Below, one piece after another: positions 1,590 through 61,300 of a DNA stretch of 64,000 bases. Position numbers and translations under genes: made by a program. Position 1 is the stretch's first letter. Each line of letters begins with the position of its first letter. Below the pieces are notes generated by a model. That model saw only the letters and a list, made by a program, of their open reading frames with translations, did not search any database and was not told the DNA's origin. Location of the stretch: positions 62,001-126,000 of the forward strand of contig LODT01000051.1 in the NCBI GenBank assembly GCA_001606155.1, in the 5' to 3' direction. This DNA comes from Tieghemostelium lacteum. Taxonomy: Eukaryota; Evosea; Eumycetozoa; Dictyosteliales; Raperosteliaceae.

Positions 1590-3161
1590 ATGAAAATACC
1601 AATAAATTCAATTGAATTGAATCAAGGATTGATGGATAGTGAAATGTATGTTCCAAACATTAAACCATCAGTTTCAAGTAACTCTTCATCACTTTCCAGT
1701 AGCACAGCTAGTTCAAGACCAGATTCACCAATTACTATGTCTACAACTACTACTACTACTACCAGTAGTACTACTACTAGTAACCACCATAGCAACCAAC
1801 ACCAAAACCACAATCGTATTAGTAAAAATACATTATTAAATATCTCCAATTCCACATCCAATTACACTAATATGATGGAACAACTAGAGATTTTTGTAGA
1901 GAAGATTGATCAATGTTCACCATCTACCAGACAATTGGTTTGGAATGCAGTTTTTCAACAATCTATTGAGACTGTTTTCAAGGATAAGAAACCACAACAT
2001 CTCGACTCCATGTTTCTAAATGAGACCAATGAATTCTCTCAAAAGTTTACACCATACTATCAGTCTCTGGTTGACGGTTATACCATTAATTACCATGCTG
2101 TAGAATTACTTTATCAAGCATTCCAAGAGACTCAAAAAACTTATCCTAATCTATTAAATCAAATATCACCAGAACAGTCTTCTTCTATTGATGACTCAAA
2201 TAACTCCAATAACAACAATAACAACAATAATAATAATATTAACAATAACTCAAGTGCAGTTATCGATTTACAAATACCATCTAATCTCTTTTTAAATTCT
2301 ACTATTTGGAGTTTTACATTCCCATCAGCTCTACAACAATTAGTATTGTTATTATACTGGCTCCCAATTCTAGAAAAACTACCAAAGAAACAGAAAAAAG
2401 CAATTTGGCATACATGTCAATTGATTCCAAATTTCCAACAAACTTATCATCAAAAGGCACCAAATTTCACTAGACTTATTCATCAATGGATTACCAATCC
2501 ACAACAACATCTTAATATGATTACTGTACTATTTGGTGCCATTGGTTATGGTATTCATTTGGGTTTGGTTAAAAATGAATTTTTCTATCCAGAATCACCC
2601 GTGAGAGTATTTGATAGTCCAATTGGTGATTCTCAACATTCACCATCCACTCAGAAGTCAAAGAAAAGATCATCAAAAGATGTGTATGATGATGACTATA
2701 GTGAATACTCATGTTCATCTTCATTGGCTAGTTCTACATCTTCTTCTTGCTCCTCTTCCTTTGATGAATTTGATCCACAATCTATAAAGAAATTAAAGAA
2801 TATGATTAATGGTAGTGGTGTACCTTCATATAGTCCTGCTCAATCTCCAAATAAATCTAATCAAACCTTCACTTCACTTGCTGGCGCTGCTACTCCAAAT
2901 GCAAATTCATCATCTAACAGTTCACCAACCATCCTGTTTTCTTATGATTTTGATAGTGATGAAGATGATAGTGAAATTGATCAAATTGAAACCATTTCAA
3001 ACAACAACAATATAGATCAAATTGAAATCATAGATAATAATAGTAACAAAATTGTAAATAATAATAATATTGAAAATACTGTAAATAATTCAAACTCCAC
3101 CGAGAAATCACTAAAATCTAAAGATATATTATGTTTTATCAAAGACACTAATAACCTAGTA

Positions 3162-3235
<74 letters not shown>

Positions 3236-3590
3236 AAATTCATCTCCTTCCATTTCATCTTCAGTTTCTCTTTTAGATGCTCTCGCTATGACAGCCAGTC
3301 ATTTTGAAGAGTTAGAGGGTGATCATGTTCCAATGGATACTACTAAAGACAGTACCACATCAACCTCTACAGTAGCATCTGAAAAAGAAATAACTAATCT
3401 ATCTAATAGTATGGATTCAACAAATAATGAGCAGAATCCTGTTAAACCATTGTCATCTAGTTCATCTTCAATTCAACCACTTTCCAAGAGACTTAGTAAA
3501 AAGAGAAGAAGTTTTTCACAACCATACAGTGTTGAATTAAAAACTGAATCTGAAGAAGTAATGTCAATCAACAATATCTTGTGTTCTTAA
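1590..3590 (+). CDS. Asn-rich protein of unknown function, single exon
   Basis: A 666-residue open frame without introns. I recognise no family. Residues about 90-330 are a non-repetitive, probably helical region rich in Trp, Leu and Gln (for example LVWNAVFQQS, then LVLLLYWLPILEKLPKKQKK), and include a short hydrophobic stretch (MITVLFGAIGYGIHLGLV). This core is interrupted by an Asn run and flanked by Ser/Thr-rich low-complexity segments. The C-terminal half has acidic Ser patches (DSDEDDSE), an Asn run of more than 20 residues encoded only by AAT, and a basic tail (SKRLSKKRRSFSQ) that could be a nuclear localisation signal. The start ATG follows an A-rich leader typical of dictyostelids. 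Codon use agrees with the neighbouring genes. Probably dictyostelid-specific; no function is proposed. Confidence 0.85.
3159..3234 (+). repeat. AAT microsatellite inside a coding region
   Basis: About 25 perfect AAT units in the coding frame, giving a pure Asn run. The lack of AAC interruptions suggests recent slippage. Other Asn runs in the window mix AAT, AAC and AGT codons. Confidence 0.95.
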
Positions 3591-4059
3591 ACATCAACAT
3601 CATTTTAATTATATATTTTACATTATTTATACATCATTCTCACACTCATCTAATAGTTTTTCTGGTATCACACCTTTCCTTTCATATAATTTATTATTTT
3701 CATCTCTGTACATTCAACTCCTATATCCATCATTCCTTTTATTAAAAAAAAAAGGAATTTGATTTTATTTAAATAGTATCAAAGAAACTTTAAAATTTTA
3801 TCAAGTTTTTATTAATCTCTAGTTGCAAAAATAAAATATAACATTAAAAAGAAAAATTGATAATAGAAGTTTAATTATTTTCTTTTATAGTACTTTTGAA
3901 GACAGTTATTTCATTTATCTTCTTATCAAAGAAGATTTATTTCTTATTTTTTTTTTTTTTTTTTTAGTTTTTCTATCGCATAATTCATTTTTATGAGATA
4001 TTACTTATTTATTTAAACCACAAATTGTTTAAACTACATTTAAATTAAAATTTAAAAAA
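3591..4059. other. Intergenic, nothing recognised
   Basis: This AT-rich spacer between two plus-strand genes holds T runs near 3948-3964. I see no coding frame or RNA gene. It should contain the 3' end of the upstream gene and the promoter of the WD40 gene. Confidence 0.6.
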
Positions 4060-5421
4060 ATGTCGGATGGACAACAACAACAGCAACAACAACAAAGACC
4101 AAGTTCACTATTCTCTTTATTAAGACTAGCACAACCAAATTTTAGAGAATTTCTGATAAATTCCAATTTATTTGGAGAGAATAGCACAGATTTCAATGAC
4201 ATGATTACACATTCTATATTGACAAATAATTTTAGTCCACAATCACCACCATCTGTAAATGAAGGTATTCTAGGCGAATGTACATTTTTTTCAAATCACA
4301 GTAGGTTTGTAAAAGGTGTTGACTTTTCACCTAGGGATGATCATATATTTTGTTCGACTGGTTTGGATGGTAAATTAATTATATACGATGCTAGATTCGC
4401 AAAAGTGAAATCAACTACACCAATTAATTTTCAAGGTACAATAAGTTTTAGTGGTTGTATGTATATATTTGTTATCAAACAACACTTTTGGTAACAATAA
4501 ATAAAGAGAATATCATTGTAGGAAAATGACTATTTAACCATGAAAATACTAATACTGAAAATAATTACTAAACACCAAGTAAAATTTTTACACGATGGTT
4601 TTAGAATAGCGTTAACAACAACATCAAATAAATTATTAATCTATGATATTGAAAAAGGTATTGTAGTTCAAAATGTAGATAAATGTTGTTCTTCAGTTCA
4701 TAGTAGGACATCTATAGCAGTTGACCCAGATACAGGTATAATAATGACACCAAATCTAACTGGAAATGGATTATCCCAGATTGATATTAGAACATCATCT
4801 ATTGTAAAATCATTAGACCATTTACATACACACCAAATTAATGATATAGAAATTCTAGATAGACAATGGTCTGATTTCTATCGCCAACAGCAACAACTAC
4901 AACCAACCTATAACCAACATTTACAACAAAATAATAATAATATTGAAAATTTAATAATGACAGTGTCATCAGATACCAATTGTAAAATATTTGATAATCA
5001 AAAGAATCAGATTAAAGAGATATCAAGTAGATCACCACTTTATTCAATTCAACATACTCCAGAGGTACCTTCACAATCTACATCATGTCTGGCTATTGGA
5101 GGTGAAAAACTTGGATTCTACTCTATAGATGGAACATTAGAACAGACATTTAGTTGTAAAGGAATAGTTAAATTAAAATACACAAAATCAGGAACTAAAT
5201 TGTTTTCTGCTGGCAATGATGGATATGTTCGTTTGTTTTCTAGATTTAAGAGAAAACATGAACTACAAGGTGTTGTCTATAGACATTCTAGAGACATACA
5301 AGATATGGCAATGTCTAGAAATGATGAATATCTAGTAACTGCCTCCACTGATAACAAAATTGGTTTGATTAGAATAGGGGATCCAATTTTTGGTCCCTCA
5401 GAATATGGTAATATAATATAG
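4060..5421 (+). CDS. WD40 repeat protein, two exons
   Basis: The model is join(4060..4435, 4580..5421), 405 residues. The donor is CAAG|GTACAA and the acceptor ACCAAG|TAAAAT; the phases match (1 then 2) and the join restores a WD blade. A Gln run at the N-terminus is followed by a helical region and at least five WD-like blades. Visible blade signatures are VKGVDFSPRDDHIFCSTGLDGKLIIYDAR, shown here only as landmarks: VKGVDFSP, GLDGKLIIYD, then SNKLLIYDI, SDTNCKIFD, GNDGYVRLF and STDNKIGLIRI. WD40 propellers are protein-docking platforms; the overall plan, with a helical lead before the propeller, recalls DCAF-type or chromatin-associated WD proteins, but I cannot assign a subfamily. The acceptor ending CAAG is less pyrimidine-rich than most, so the intron end is the weakest part of the model. 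Confidence 0.8.
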
Positions 5422-5728
5422 TAAATTAATAAGTAACTAATAAATTAGACCGATTTTACCTTGTATATAAACACAACTACATAGATAATTAACTAAATAA
5501 AATTATTTTATTATCTGACCTACATAATTTCCCTTCATTACCAGTTCCTTTAAATGCATTGGATTTTCAAATAATTTAGGTTGATATTTTTTTGAATTTA
5601 ATTCAACGAAAAAAATTTATATAAAAAAAGTGTGATTGCAAAAAAAGATTGATATTTTTGATCATAACTTTTTTTTTTTTGTATTAGAAAAAAATAATTG
5701 TATTATTACCTGTACTATTTTTAAAATA
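5422..5728. other. Intergenic spacer
   Basis: This AT-rich stretch between the WD40 gene and the permuted Ras gene has no coding potential I can support. A T run followed by GTATTAG lies just upstream of the next start codon and could be a leader intron end. Confidence 0.5.
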
Positions 5729-8337
5729 ATGGAATTTGCATCAGAATTTGTATTTATAAACCCAAGTGACTCAGTTTCACTTGAATGGTTTACCAAAAGT
5801 GAATTACATGATGTTACTGGTACTAGTAACTTAATGAATGTTGTAAATACAAAATCGCTTTACAGTCATACTTCAGCAGCTTCCAAAATTGGTGGTGAAA
5901 CAGATACTGTACTACTTGATATTTTAGATACAGCTGGTCAAGAAGAATATTCAGCTATGAGTAAGTAATCTTGTTTAGTTTTAAAAACTGCAAATAGATT
6001 TGAAAACTAAAACACTTCTGTTTATTTTTAAAATAACAAAAAATAAAAACAGGAGATCAATATGTTAGAACTGGTAATGCATTCCTTTTGGTTTATAGTA
6101 TAACATCAAGATCATCTTTTGAAGAAGTACCACAATTAATTCAACATGTAGCTAGAATTAAAGATTCTGATAATACACCAATTATTATTATTGGTAATAA
6201 AGGTGATTTGGAATATCAAAGAGAAGTTTCAAGACTAGAGGGTGAACAATTAGCTAGAAATTATAATTGTCCATTCATTGAAACCTCCGCCAAAACTCGT
6301 GTTAATATTGAAGAGGCATTTTTCAAATTGATTAGAATCACACCAAGAGGTAAAGAATATAAACTTGTAGCAATGGGTGGCGGTGGTGTTGGTAAGAGTG
6401 CTATCATCATTCAGTTTATTCAAAATCATTTTGTAGATGAATATGATCCTACTATTGAGGATTCTTACAGAAAACAAATTACAATCTCTGGACTTCCACC
6501 ATACTATGATCCAAAAAAGAAAACTACAACTACCTCTTCTAGTTCATCAGGTGGTAAATCAATTATGGGTAAATTATTTGGTAGTGGTAGTTCAAAGAAA
6601 ATTGAAGCAGTTTCATCTATTGCTCCTCAACCTAAACTTCAAGTTGGAGATTATTCCGTTGAGGCTTTGGATACTAATGCATTTGTAACACCAATGGATA
6701 TTCTAAATGTAAATTCACCAATGATGACTGGTGATGCAATGTATTGTCAAGGTTGTAATGTAATTTTGAATAGACATTCAAATCTAACTAGACCAGGAGC
6801 AACAGGACCTTACACATGGCGTTGTGAATTTTGTAAATATACCAATGAAAATCTTCTATTGGAACCTTCTGAAATTCCAAATCGTGATGCTGTTGAATAT
6901 ATATTAGCACAACCATTAGAGAGTGGTGAATCAACTCAAAAGAAAAAAGAAGATTCAATCATTGTTTATTGTATTGATATCTCTGGATCCATGTCAGTTA
7001 CAACTGAAATTCCAGCATTACAATCTGAATGGGGTAATGTTAAAAAAGGTCAAAAAGAAAGTGGACCATCTTACATTTCAAGATTGGAATGTGTTCAACA
7101 ATCTATTCCAACAATGATTGATAGACTTCAATTACAATATCCCAACAAAAAAGTGGTATTAGTAACCTTCTCTGATGAAGTTATAGTACATTCCTCAACT
7201 GGTGATGTAGTAGTTACAGGTGATAAATTAGAGTCATTTGATCAACTTGTAGATATCGGTAACAGCTTTAAATATGACCAATTGACATCTGTAACCTCTA
7301 GCAATGATTTCTTAAAAAAGAAAATCAAATCATTAGAACCAAATCAATCAACAGCTCTTGGACCAGCTCTATTAATATCCACTATCATTTGTAGTCAAAG
7401 ACCACTTTCTGAAGTTGTAGTATGTACTGATGGTGTGCCCAATGTAGGTTTAGGTGCTATTGAAGATGTACCAATTCAACCAGCAAGAGAATTCTACGAT
7501 CGTGTAATTGAATTGGCTCAAACTAATAAATCATCCATCTCCATCATTGGTATCAGTGGTTGTGAAATTGATTTGGGTGTCATTGGTAAGATTGCTGAAG
7601 AGACTAAAGGTACAGTTACAACCATTCATCCATTAGAGATGGCAAGAGAAATTCGTAAACTCACTCAAAATCCAGTGATTGCAACTGATGTTGAAGTCTC
7701 TGTTATTGCACATCCCAATATTGAGTTTTCACGTTACGATTCCAAACAAGGTTTATCAAGAGTTGTAAAAACATTTGCTAATGTAAATGCTCAAACTGAT
7801 CTCACATTTACCTTTAAAAATCGTTCAAGAGTCAAGGAAAACCTCCGTGAATATCCATTCCAAGTTCAGATAAAGTACACTAAATTGGATGGTATGCGTT
7901 GCCAAAAGGTTATCACTGTGAATAAACGTACAACACCAGCCAGAGAAGAAGCTGAAAGAAATGCTGTAATCTCAGTACTCTCTCAAGCATTCACACAACA
8001 AGCTGCAAAAATGGCACAATTAGAGGAATTCCAAAATGCACATTTCTATCTTAAAGCTGCTACAAGACTATTCCAAAGAATCTGTTTATCTGATGAACAA
8101 CAAGAAGAATCCTATAATTTCAATATCCTCAGAGATGAATTGGATGCCAATCTCGTTGAATGTATTAAAAATAAGGAAAAGAAATTTGAAAAACCAGCTT
8201 CTGATGAGAATTCTAAAGTCTTTATCAAGATGAAAAATGTTCATAAATCCTTTGTTGTCTCTGGTAAAAAGAAAGATATCTCAAAAAGAAAAGGTGAGGC
8301 TGAAATTAATAAGCAATATTATGCTATTAGATTTTAA
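5729..8337 (+). CDS. cpras1: Circularly permuted Ras-like GTPase with Sec23/24-type zinc finger and vWA domain
   Basis: The model is join(5729..5960, 6053..8337), 838 residues; the intron GTAAGT...ACAG restores SAM-R-DQYVRTG. The Ras motifs occur in permuted order. G3 (DTAGQE, about residue 67) is followed by G4 (NKGD, about 124) and G5 (ETSAK, about 152). Only then come the P-loop G1 (GGGGVGKSA, about 184) and switch I/G2 (YDPTIEDSY, about 206). After a Ser/Thr linker comes a four-Cys finger (CQGC...CEFC, about 305-337) like that of Sec23/24, and a vWA domain whose MIDAS motif DISGSMS is near residue 382. The C-terminal 250 residues resemble the beta and helical part of Sec23/24. This architecture is the cpRAS family described in Dictyostelium and a few scattered eukaryotes; its function is unknown. 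All nucleotide-binding motifs look intact. I chose the ATG at 5729 because the in-frame one at 5636 precedes a T-rich non-coding stretch. Whether it equals D. discoideum cpras1 or cpras2 cannot be decided here. Confidence 0.93.
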
Positions 8338-9823: not shown

Positions 9824-10690
9824 TTATACTTTTACAGACATGGGTACAGTTCCTATTCCATAACAATGTTTAAAAACTGGTTGTTTATATTCTCTCTGGT
9901 GTACTAGTGACTTTGATGATGTCCTACAAGAAAAGGAGCATAAGTCAAATTGGCTTTTAAAAAATGAAGGATTGATACCTTTTTCAATTAATTTTACTAA
10001 AACTTTGGTGAGAATAGATTCTTTATCTGATGACATGCAACATGATACACAAAATTCATATTCTCTACAACAATGGTATCCTTTTAGACATCCTCTACAA
10101 GAGAACTGCTTCTCTATTGTATCTTGTATAATTTCGATGGAGCTTTCTAGTATCTCCTCTTGTTGTGGTTCGGCTATAGATGGATGATTATAATCACAAC
10201 ATCCAGTAATTGGATCAACATTTCCAATAAGACATACATAACCTTGATCATCTGCAATGTACTTTGTACCTTGTACTGTATTTTTACATGTTTTTATAAT
10301 AGCTGTTGCTGTTGGTTTTGTAACCTGTGGTGATTTACTGTCTTGTGATGAAACAACTGAATTACTCTTACTACCACTACTATCATCACTGTTAGTGGTA
10401 GAAAGAGAATCTTGCTCGACATTGATACTTATTGGTATCTGACTAGTAGGTCCCCACCTAAAATCTAAGTTCCTCAGTATTTCTAAATATTTTTTATCTA
10501 TTGGTTTATCTTCATCGCTCTTTTTATTATTATTGTTATTATTACTATTATTATTATTATTATCGTCTTTGTTCGGCTGATTACTATATCCAAATGGGAA
10601 TTTAAGATCAGTATGTATTAATTCTATGACTGTGAAAATAATTGTAATTAAAAATAATATGAGTAAACATAATTTTAATGAAATTCTCAT
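9824..10690 (-). CDS. SPRING1: SPRING / C12orf49 homologue, Golgi SREBP-pathway regulator
   Basis: A single exon of 288 residues. A short basic N-terminus precedes one hydrophobic segment (about residues 6-26: CLLILFLITIIFTVIELI), giving a type II membrane protein, then an Asn/Lys-rich linker. The Cys-rich C-terminal half matches the SPRING family. The landmarks are CKNTVQGTKYIADDQGYVC, GCCDYNHPS, CCREYEFCVSCC, DLCSFSCRTSS and FKHCYGIG, in the same order and spacing as the human protein (CQNSVQG, GYVC, CCSAYEYCVSCC, LCLAKCRTSS, KYCYGE). Human SPRING licenses site-1 protease (MBTPS1) and is needed for SREBP processing in the Golgi. The Asn tract and a Ser-rich insertion before the Cys domain are dictyostelid additions. 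The C-terminal domain assignment is strong; its role in amoebae is inferred from the family. Confidence 0.92.
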   Translation of the reverse strand: MRISLKLCLLILFLITIIFTVIELIHTDLKFPFGYSNQPNKDDNNNNNSNNNNNNKKSDEDKPIDKKYLEILRNLDFRWGPTSQIPISINVEQDSLSTTNSDDSSGSKSNSVVSSQDSKSPQVTKPTATAIIKTCKNTVQGTKYIADDQGYVCLIGNVDPITGCCDYNHPSIAEPQQEEILESSIEIIQDTIEKQFSCRGCLKGYHCCREYEFCVSCCMSSDKESILTKVLVKLIEKGINPSFFKSQFDLCSFSCRTSSKSLVHQREYKQPVFKHCYGIGTVPMSVKV

Positions 10691-58315: not shown

Positions 58316-61300
58316 TTAATTTTTTGAATCAGATAAAGATTTTTCAGCATTGAAATCAGAACTTGAATTGGAACCAACATTAGCTGATAATCTTCTATTT
58401 CTAAGATCTTGAGCTAATTTCATTCTGTTCTCACGTAAAGACATTTTCTTTGCACTTGGATCATTTTCAGTATCAACTTTAGTTTCAGGTTTCTTGAGAA
58501 TTTTGTCTACAAAACCTTCAATATCTGATTTATTCTGAGCAAAGCCGTCAGTGGAGGAAACTGAATTTGCAACTCTCTCAGTGTTATCCTTTACACGAAT
58601 AGTTTCTTCATCCTTTACAGTCTTAATTTCTTTCTTCCATTCCTCCATCTGTTGATTGTCACTAAAGATAATGGAAACTGATTTCTCACCCTTTTGATAG
58701 AGTTTCAGTGATGGCAGACCAGTGATTTTCTCATTTTCCTCCATCTCCATTTTATTCAATAGAAATGTGAATGCAGCTTGCAATCTAATTGTCTTTTGCT
58801 TACCAAAGAAAGAGGAGCTACTGGATTTTGAGGAACGACTGATACTTATACTGTCATTGAACAGGTAGACTACAATAGGGTTCTTTTTAGTCTTACTGAC
58901 AAACTCAAAGAACTCACCTTCTCTGACAAATCTTCTACTGGACCATGAGGATTTAGATAGAGTCTCATCAGAGAGTTTCTCTTGAATCTCTGCTAGTTTC
59001 ATCATGTTTTCAGCCTCCTTCTTCTTGTCATTCATAAACTCTGCAACCTGATTAATGAGTTCAAATGCCTTTACCAACTGAGGGTAATCAGGATGAGTTT
59101 GCCAAGTATGTGATATCATATCTTTCAACAATAAACTATATCTTGGAATTCTTTGAATAGGTCTAATGAGATAGTCTTCAAGACCTCTGAGTTTAATCTC
59201 TTCGTTCTGGTCTTTGATCTTTTGTAAAAATGCCTTGAATTTAGACTGAGTTTTTAGAGTATTCAGTAAATTCATAGCCTCAGTATAGTTTCTACTATAC
59301 TGACTGTACACCTTCAAAAATGCACTAAATTTAATGAAAATGTCACCGATACATGTGTTTTGGTCCCATTTCTCCACACGATTGTTTAGTTCAGTCTTCA
59401 AAATGGTATTGTAAGCCAACACAATTTCAATCTCTGAAAATATAATTTTTAATTCCTCCTCTGATATAATTGGACTTCCTTTCACATTGATTGCATCTCT
59501 CAATTCCTTGATTACGAAATCTTTTAAAAATGTCAAACGTGTGAGATATTCAATTTCAGTTTTTTGAATCTCTTGAACTATTCTCTCTCTATAAGCTGCA
59601 TCTCTTGCTAAAACTCTCTGACGATTTCTTTCTAACCATCTCTTTACAGCTTTTTGAATTCTGATTGCAGCTCTTTCCTCTACTGATAATTTTGGTTGAC
59701 TTGGTGTTTTTGGTGATGATGTTACAGTTGTTGTTGTTGTGGTTGTGGTAGTAGATGGTGTTGCAGGTTTAGATAATACACTAGCATTAGTACTTGTAGT
59801 TGATGAGATGGTTGGTGTAGTTGGTGTGGAGTTTGAAGTTGTACTAGTTGTAGTTGTACCAGGAACAACTTTATTTACTGGTGCACTTGATGATAGAATG
59901 GGTGATGAATTAGGTTGAACTTTAATAGGTGAACTTAAACTATTTCTATTTGAACCACCTGGGGACTATATTATAAAAAAATAAATTAGTAATTTGTTTT
60001 AATTTGAAATCAAAAGGGGGGTAGTGTATATTAAAAATAAAAATATCATCATCAAAATGTGGGTGTATGTGTTTGTGTGTGTTGAGGAGAGAGAGAGAGG
60101 AAGATTGGTAAATGACAGTATTTTTTGATATATTGACTATTTTGATGACTGAGAATGGGTACTGACATTTTCATTTTCAAGTGGTTCATCTTCTTTAATA
60201 GTTGTTGTTATTTGTTGTTTACTAGTACCAATAGTTATACTATTTAAATTATTACTATTGATATTACTAGTACTACTGGGTAATGTACTTGTGATTGTTG
60301 GTTTTTGATCTTCAATTACTAATGAATTCTTTAAACTATTATTAATAAATGATTTTTTAGTTGGTGTAGTTGAAGTAATGGGTTTAGTTGTAGGTAAACT
60401 ATCACTCGAATTATTGAAAAAAGAGGATATTGAAGGTTTAGGTTTTGTTAATGATGTTGATCTAGTTTTTACTGTACAATATGATTCTATGTGTGAAATA
60501 CGTTGAGGTTGCAGTAATGATGCGTTATTACTAATGGTTAGTGGTTTAGTTGGATTCTTCCACTTGTTTAATACATCTTGAAAATTAATTCTGGTGTCGT
60601 CTGTTGTTGTGTTTGTTGATGATTTATCTGTTGATGATGATAATGATGTTCCTGATGGTTCTGTATGATTACTATTCTGTGATGATGATAAAGAAGGTAC
60701 TGTTGATGATGATTTAGGTGACGATGATAAAAATAAGGAAAAAGATTTTGGTGAAGTAGAAATGGGTGAAGGTGATAATGGTAATGAAAATGAAGATTGA
60801 GGTGTAAGAGATAACGATTTGGAGTGCTGTCTAGACACTCTATCTCCTCCTACAATCCCTCCTCCTCCTCCTCCTCTGATATTTTTAAATAAACTATTAT
60901 TATTTGTTATAGAAATAAAATCACTAACCTTTTGTGGATTGTTATCAGGATATAGTTTCTTTTGATCTGCTAAATGTTGAAATAGTCTAGTTTTAGTTTC
61001 CTCTATACCACCATCTGATTGAACCTGTGTCTTCTTGATTACTTCCTGTCGTTTATTCTCTCTAATTGTAAATTGTGCTAACATTTGTTCGGCATTTGAT
61101 ATCTCTTCTTCTGAAAATACTTGATCCGGGCTAGTCTCTGGCCAATCTGTTGTGAATGCATAAGAAGGATCCGAATTTGCAATCTATATAAATAGAGGTT
61201 GTGGGAAAAAAAAAATCAAATATAAAAAAAATGAGTGTGTGGGTGATATGTGAGTGTATATATAAAAAGCTTAAAACAAATACTTACCTTACAAATAGAT

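Follow-up and report, generated by a model that had tools for sequence, protein, structure and literature searches.

The CPRas (cpRAS-VWA) family was described in 2008 by Elias and Novotny (PMC2430557). According to the part of that article available to us, its members have a short N-terminus, a circularly permuted RAS domain with the TIE motif, a linker, four cysteines and a vWA domain, and proteins that have the C-terminal module without a cpRAS domain also exist. The same part of the article leaves the function of CPRas proteins open, and cites an earlier argument that opening a Ras domain at the beta2-beta3 turn should impair its folding. The YRG/YlqF proteins are likewise circularly permuted P-loop GTPases, with their motifs in the order G4-G5-G1-G2-G3 (PMC2430557, same part).

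Proteins of the Sec23/24 family are already known from Asgard archaea, as stated in the available parts of PMC9797344 and PMC7997004, the latter noting Sec23/24 families in Thorarchaeota. Here we describe a CPRas gene in a 64,000-nucleotide stretch of Tieghemostelium lacteum DNA (the whole stretch is referred to as the window), the Asgard proteins that resemble its C-terminal half, and a group of Asgard GTPases that are permuted in the same order as its Ras domain.

Results

The gene and its permuted Ras domain

The gene lies on the forward strand at 5729-8337 of the window (ATG at 5729, TAA at 8337), and its spliced product has 838 residues encoded in two exons. Exon 1 (5729..5960) covers codons 1-77 and ends after the first base of codon 78; it reads from an N-terminal stretch without a match into the beta-3 strand and then the G3 motif. 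Exon 2 (6053..8337) runs to the stop codon. The intron between them (5961-6052, 92 nt, GT..AG) is 80% AT compared with 67% in either exon, in a window that is AT-rich and has long Asn and Gln runs, which by our reading resembles dictyostelid DNA. Six splices in the scanned range leave the frame open, and just the splice at 5961-6052 yields SAMRDQYVRTG, which corresponds to SAMRDQYMRTG of HRas; the intron falls after SAM.

The sequence-only reading of this locus had proposed that the Ras motifs run in the order G3-G4-G5-G1-G2, and both the motif positions and a phmmer comparison with HRas bear this out. The motifs are DTAGQE (G3, 5927..5944, starting at residue 67), NKGD (G4, 6196..6207, residue 126), TSAK (G5, 6283..6294, residue 155), GGGGVGKS (G1/P-loop, 6376..6399, residue 186) and DPTIED (G2/switch I, 6445..6462, residue 209), all on the forward strand. 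The P-loop and the key residues are intact, as had also been claimed: the equivalents of Gln61 in G3, Gly12 in G1 and Thr35 in G2 are retained, and GTP binding and hydrolysis by the protein are predicted from these residues.

The domain as a whole (5903..6492, forward strand, residues 59-224, interrupted by the intron; delimited by phmmer against HRas, Pfam Ras and tblastn) is laid out from beta-3 to alpha-5 and then from beta-1 to beta-2. It is 63% identical to HRas, the Pfam Ras match has an E-value of 1.4e-52, and HRas gives tblastn matches at 5888-5962 and 6355-6492. In phmmer against the PDB (E 3.5e-57), residues 59-183 align with HRas 49-172 and residues 179-224 with HRas 3-48. These alignment limits indicate that the cut in the chain falls in the beta2-beta3 turn, between HRas positions 48 and 49. 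The G1-G2 part is identical to HRas at 37 of 46 residues, far beyond chance. A single-sequence structure model of the exon-2 product (pLDDT 34.9, pTM 0.24) was too poor for a fold search.

That exon 1 ends inside the Ras domain, and that the splice was read from the sequence alone, would be consistent with an artefact of the gene model or the assembly, the apparent permutation being a misreading of a canonical Ras exon or of two Ras copies in tandem. Such an error is extremely unlikely. The G4, G5, G1 and G2 motifs and the entire C-terminal half lie in the single uninterrupted open frame of exon 2, and an identical architecture has been published for other species (PMC2430557, available part). 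Furthermore, neither GxxxxGK[ST] nor DxTIE occurs in any forward frame of 2701-5960, so that a canonical G1-G2 segment upstream of DTAGQE, the arrangement that the sequence-only reading had named as fatal to its proposal, is not seen in this range.

By its sequence features the window gene is an additional member of the known CPRas family, as had been proposed. When compared with DdiCPRas1 and the other members in the available part of PMC2430557, the window protein shares the motif order and the RAS-type TIE switch I (DPTIED at residue 209, in a domain that is sister to HRas in the tree presented below), an N-terminus of about 58 residues, the linker, the four-Cys finger upstream of the vWA domain, and the vWA domain itself (VWA_2 at E 2.4e-5, just below the curated Pfam cut-off; 176 bits over residues 420-805 with the Asgard profile described below). 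Its 838 residues compare with about 840-970 in the described proteins, and no distinguishing feature was seen. A RING finger is present at the C-terminus of the Naegleria homologue (PMC2430557, available part); the Pfam scan did not find one in the window protein. The motif order sets the window protein apart from YRG/YlqF. When the window protein was scanned against the genome-contig and viral-contig collections, no relative was confirmed.

The C-terminal module and its Asgard relatives

In the C-terminal half of the protein lies a zinc-finger-like segment of four cysteines, C-x2-C-x22-C-x2-C (6745..6834, forward strand like the other features of this half, with CxxC at residues 309 and 335). 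It is followed by a vWA/Sec23-24 trunk-like domain (6964..7665, about residues 382-615, the limits being approximate and drawn from Pfam and the Asgard profile) and a Sec23/24 beta-sandwich-like segment (7771..7932, residues 651-704). The vWA domain has an intact MIDAS, in agreement with the sequence-only reading, made up of DxSxS in the form DISGS (6976..6990, residues 386-390), T511, and TDG (7426..7434, residues 536-538).

That reading had further assigned the C-terminal half to a module otherwise found in COPII coat proteins. The resemblance to Sec23/24 holds, but this description oversimplifies. The zinc finger (zf-Sec23_Sec24, E 0.0055, 17.1 bits against a cut-off of 25), the trunk (Sec23_trunk, E 0.054, 13.5 bits against 27) and the beta-sandwich (Sec23_BS, PF08033, E 4.6e-4, 21.2 bits against 33.5) all score below the curated Pfam cut-offs, and Sec23/24 is absent up to E 1 from a single-sequence PDB search with the C-terminal half. 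Sec23 and Sec24 of COPII also carry a C-terminal gelsolin-like domain. The Pfam scan of the window protein returned no gelsolin model at E up to 10, in a search where the HMMER filters drop most weak matches.

When the segment from the vWA domain to the helical part was used as the query, 82 of 227 Asgard genomes gave matches at E<=0.01 (at one place per genome), 78 of them at 5.2e-13 or better. Forty of these loci were fetched, each with a module-matching open reading frame of 480-637 residues. The C-x2-C...C-x2-C segment is present in 39 of the 40 proteins, the exception being L121, which starts at a contig end and retains the second pair; all 40 have DxSGS with TDG behind it at the expected spacing. 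In an alignment of the window protein with 26 of these Asgard proteins, the four cysteines and the MIDAS residues (D/S/S, T and TDG) are invariant.

We built an Asgard Sec23/24-like profile from the 26 Asgard proteins. Its best match in the PDB is yeast Sec24 (70.8 bits, E 8.1e-19), followed by Sec23 at about 30 bits and the vWA domain of inter-alpha-trypsin inhibitor at 24.6. The same profile matches the window protein with 212.6 bits (E 8.5e-62 at the database size of the PDB search), and none of 200 shuffles of the window protein was reported. The match extends along the profile (positions 43-531 of 545) and covers window residues 302-392 and 420-805, the beta-sandwich-like segment included. 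Thus, in profile score, the CPRas C-terminal half is far closer to the Asgard protein than the COPII subunits in the PDB are, which is a statement of similarity and not of kinship, and its link to COPII appears to run through the Asgard archaeal Sec23/24-like family. The zinc finger, MIDAS-bearing vWA domain, beta-sandwich and helical segment are colinear in the window protein and the Asgard proteins; the latter have no matched GTPase domain, and in one group a GTPase is encoded separately, close by. With COPII Sec23 and Sec24 the window protein has in common the order of zinc finger, trunk and beta-sandwich, and the tie is made via the Asgard profile. No report of a link between CPRas and Asgard Sec23/24-like proteins was found among the matches listed in the open-access literature.

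In a module tree of 29 rows, two Sec24 rows join the window half opposite the 26 Asgard rows (91/94); long branches meet there, and this order of branching is tentative. A branching of the window half inside the Asgard family, which we considered, is unsupported by this tree. Among 200 Thermoproteota genomes taken from a larger group, the Asgard profile gave weak partial matches in 11 and a full-length match in none. Two contigs of the viral collection, L167 and IMGVR_UViG_3300014208_000026 (L168), match the Asgard vWA module weakly and over part of its length.

Gene neighbourhoods of CPRas and of the Asgard proteins

Scanning of 20 open reading frames in the window (WD40, MaoC dehydratase, SPRING1, Tim17, cyclin and others) gave no hint of the role of CPRas. 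Among their products are a SPRING1 (SREBP regulating gene) homologue (9827-10690, reverse strand, Pfam 3.4e-36) and a RhoGEF-domain protein (58319-59965, reverse strand, 4.2e-46), the latter being the only other small-GTPase-related product of the 20 and encoded about 50 kb from the CPRas gene. The sequence-only reading had found nothing in the neighbourhood to account for the role of the gene, and this holds for the 20 open reading frames. The surroundings of the Asgard relative are more telling, since in one group it is accompanied by GTPase and Roadblock genes.

The group comprises 17 loci (L101-L117) and was defined after the gene order had been noticed. In 14 of the 17 the Sec23/24-like gene is followed on its own strand by a gene for an Arf/Ras-like GTPase, and downstream on this strand there are also a first, a second and a third Roadblock/LC7 gene in 12, 14 and 11 loci, respectively. 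An additional Roadblock-like gene lies upstream on the opposite strand in 12, and up to four Roadblock or Roadblock-like genes occur per locus. Family names were taken from one representative per cluster, with Pfam Robl_LC7 at 8.9e-16, 2.6e-10, 2.6e-16 and 4.1e-4 (the last below the cut-off) and Arf at 4.8e-14 for the GTPase; gene maps were drawn for three of the 17. Because some loci, for example L109, have intervening genes, we regard the arrangement as a conserved gene order rather than a proven operon. Ten of these loci are in the module tree, where they form one clade (95/96). The group probably represents Thorarchaeia, in which Sec23/24 is noted in the available part of PMC7997004. The clustered GTPase is canonical and Arf-like, and is not an ancestor of cpRAS. 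By reading, an SMC-like gene lies near the Sec23/24-like gene, and divergent from it, in 15 of the 17 loci, and ScpA/B-like genes (by reading) and a prenyltransferase gene occur around the cluster.

The remaining 23 of the 40 Asgard loci, some of which are on short contigs, did not show this gene order. A phmmer scan, which is blind to GTPases of the Arf-like kind, placed a Ras-like GTPase nearby in four of the 23, two of them about 0.76 kb away on the same strand. In one Asgard strain, GTPase and Roadblock genes do not as a rule share operons (PMC10933270, available part), a statement that makes the cluster of L101-L117 notable and at the same time cautions against generalising from it. Elsewhere in the Asgard set, L124-L127 and L130-L133 encode fusions, about 340-700 residues long, in which a Roadblock/longin-like stretch (by reading) at the N-terminus is joined to a canonical Ras-like GTPase.

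These observations bear on a reading without any coat link, in which the module is a metal-dependent vWA scaffold or an adaptor of the ubiquitin-ligase type under GTPase control, and the resemblance to Sec23/24 reflects ancestry only. Its attraction is that the MIDAS is intact in the window protein and in the Asgard family, the Asp of TDG included, and that yeast Sec24 lacks this Asp in the alignment; the RING of the Naegleria homologue would also fit. Nevertheless, we consider this reading rather unlikely, as in one group the gene of the Asgard relative is found together with those of a small GTPase and of Roadblock regulators, and as the window protein has no RING in the Pfam scan.

A second family of permuted GTPases in Asgard archaea

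A query spanning the G5-G1 junction led to eleven candidates for inspection (L083 and L124-L133), and L129 was found to be permuted. Among L124-L133 it is the only one, eight being complete canonical GTPases (L124-L127, L130-L133) and L128 a truncated canonical one. With L129 as the query, 26 Asgard genomes gave near-full-length colinear matches at 40-56% identity (100% in its own genome), and three more distant permuted matches came from G155, G157 and G159. Ras-like GTPases in the order G3-G4-G5-G1-G2 occur in at least 29 of the 227 Asgard genomes, a lower bound stated with 14 candidates scored per genome. We rejected G180:C238, where a long repeat-like region comes after a canonical GTPase, and four long matches with internal stops (in G190, G202, G084 and G054), which are adjoining canonical genes.

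All 29 open reading frames that were read have G3, G4, G5 and G1 in this order, followed by a G2-like motif, and none has a P-loop motif 60-400 nt upstream. An ATG, GTG or TTG precedes G3 in 28 of them (all except L158); the start codon lies inside beta-3 in L138, L139, L146 and L157, where the true start is unsure. In the five proteins scanned with Pfam the chain begins at about position 47-48 of the Ras profile, which is the same turn as in the window protein. The Gln61 equivalent is present in 26 of the 29, and the remaining three have DPPG. Unlike the window protein, with its retained Gly12 equivalent, 25 of the 29 have Ala at this position (e.g. L145:3068-3736). In Ras, such changes at Gly12 slow hydrolysis.

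The Asgard permuted GTPases are mostly short: 23 of the 29 are 219-293 residues long, and 10 of these 23 have a C-terminal hydrophobic segment. Overall, a strongly hydrophobic segment is found in 15 of 28 tails, that of L135 being cut by the contig end. A multi-domain form, consisting of the permuted domain, a linker, a further segment and hydrophobic C-terminal segments, is seen in L129:64-2184, L134, L159, L160 and L161; DPPG replaces DxxGQ in three of these five, and in the three scanned with Pfam the further segment was not assigned a family.

A methyltransferase-like gene (by reading) lies upstream on the same strand in 15 of 27 permuted loci, mostly within a few tens of bases, and one downstream gene family is common to 22 of the 27. 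These conserved neighbours argue against assembly error or eukaryotic contamination. We infer that most of the genomes are Lokiarchaeia. Among the matches listed in the open-access literature, none described small GTPases of Asgard archaea as permuted. A profile of the permuted GTPases matched nine of the 200 Thermoproteota genomes, always as separate halves and never across the junction, and the alignment of the permuted GTPases gave no match to the viral contigs.

The identical motif order and the identical turn suggest that the eukaryotic cpRAS permutation might have been inherited from the Asgard permuted GTPases. We examined this with a GTPase tree of 65 domains arranged in canonical order. 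Besides the window domain, it contains HRas and three Rabs as references, 22 Asgard permuted domains out of the 29, and 38 canonical domains, some of them bacterial, out of 73 from the fetched loci. HRas is the sister of the window domain (100/100), whereas all 22 permuted domains from Asgard archaea fall into one separate clade (97/94). Forcing the window domain and the Asgard permuted domains together costs 70.9 log units and is rejected (p-AU 2.9e-16). Because a single clade is rejected, the beta2-beta3 turn has been opened at least twice, and inheritance from the Asgard GTPases is hardly credible. The tree has just four eukaryotic reference rows; a different outcome is nonetheless unlikely given the nearness of the window domain to HRas.

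The Asgard proteins also bear on whether the GTPase half could be a structural relic that folds poorly or no longer switches, leaving the module to work alone. The folding argument cited in PMC2430557, and the module proteins without cpRAS mentioned in the available part of that article, would be in keeping with such a relic. It is improbable, however, for a domain that has all five motifs intact at its level of identity to HRas, and the permutation at the same turn has been retained in at least 29 Asgard genomes. Among the alternatives to a working switch joined to a coat-like module, we rank the vWA scaffold first, the dead switch second and the gene-model error last.

Discussion

The window protein is most likely a GTP switch and a coat or scaffold module on one chain. 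More specifically, we give about an even chance to the proposal that CPRas proteins combine a RAS switch permuted at the beta2-beta3 turn with a Sec23/24-like module of zinc finger, MIDAS-bearing vWA domain, beta-sandwich and helical segment, the two acting in cis. The module would be the partner of a small GTPase, and CPRas would unite in cis two partners that meet in trans in COPII, as Sar1 and Sec23/24, and possibly also in the Asgard system. Since the permutation opens the interswitch hairpin, beta-2, which lies beside switch I, is continued by the linker directly to the module, and GTP binding could therefore pass directly to the module. The nucleotide state would then switch the binding of the module to membrane, cargo or a metal-dependent ligand, and hydrolysis would reset it.

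What speaks for this proposal is a Ras domain that is permuted and yet complete, the similarity of the module to the Asgard proteins in the profile comparison, and the proximity of GTPase and Roadblock genes in one Asgard group. What speaks against it is that the gene order of L101-L117 was not found in more than half of the fetched loci, that the module tree does not put the window half with the Asgard proteins, and that the RING finger of the Naegleria homologue points elsewhere. We found no report of nucleotide binding, GTPase activity or localisation of CPRas, whose functions PMC2430557 leaves open in its available part.

A broader reading, which we offer tentatively and would not yet bet on, is that opening of the beta2-beta3 turn is a recurrent functional design with at least two origins, one in eukaryotic RAS and one in Asgard archaea. 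As part of the same reading, the cut would let the switch pull directly on whatever comes after beta-2; the Asgard version would for the most part be a GTPase on its own, in many cases with a tail resembling a membrane anchor; and CPRas would be the one-chain form of a pre-COPII Asgard pair of GTPase and Sec23/24-like protein, retaining a metal-binding vWA domain that the COPII subunits have apparently lost.

The leads that come from the window gene matter more than the addition of one member to the family of 2008. A permutation that was once argued to impair folding is present independently in archaea, and for this reason it likely folds and has been kept. A relative of the C-terminal half of CPRas exists in prokaryotes, and in one group its gene lies near small GTPase and Roadblock genes. 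From this archaeal context comes a concrete hypothesis, that in CPRas a coat-like module and a GTPase may act in cis, together with a testable pair of GTPase and Sec23/24-like protein in Asgard archaea.
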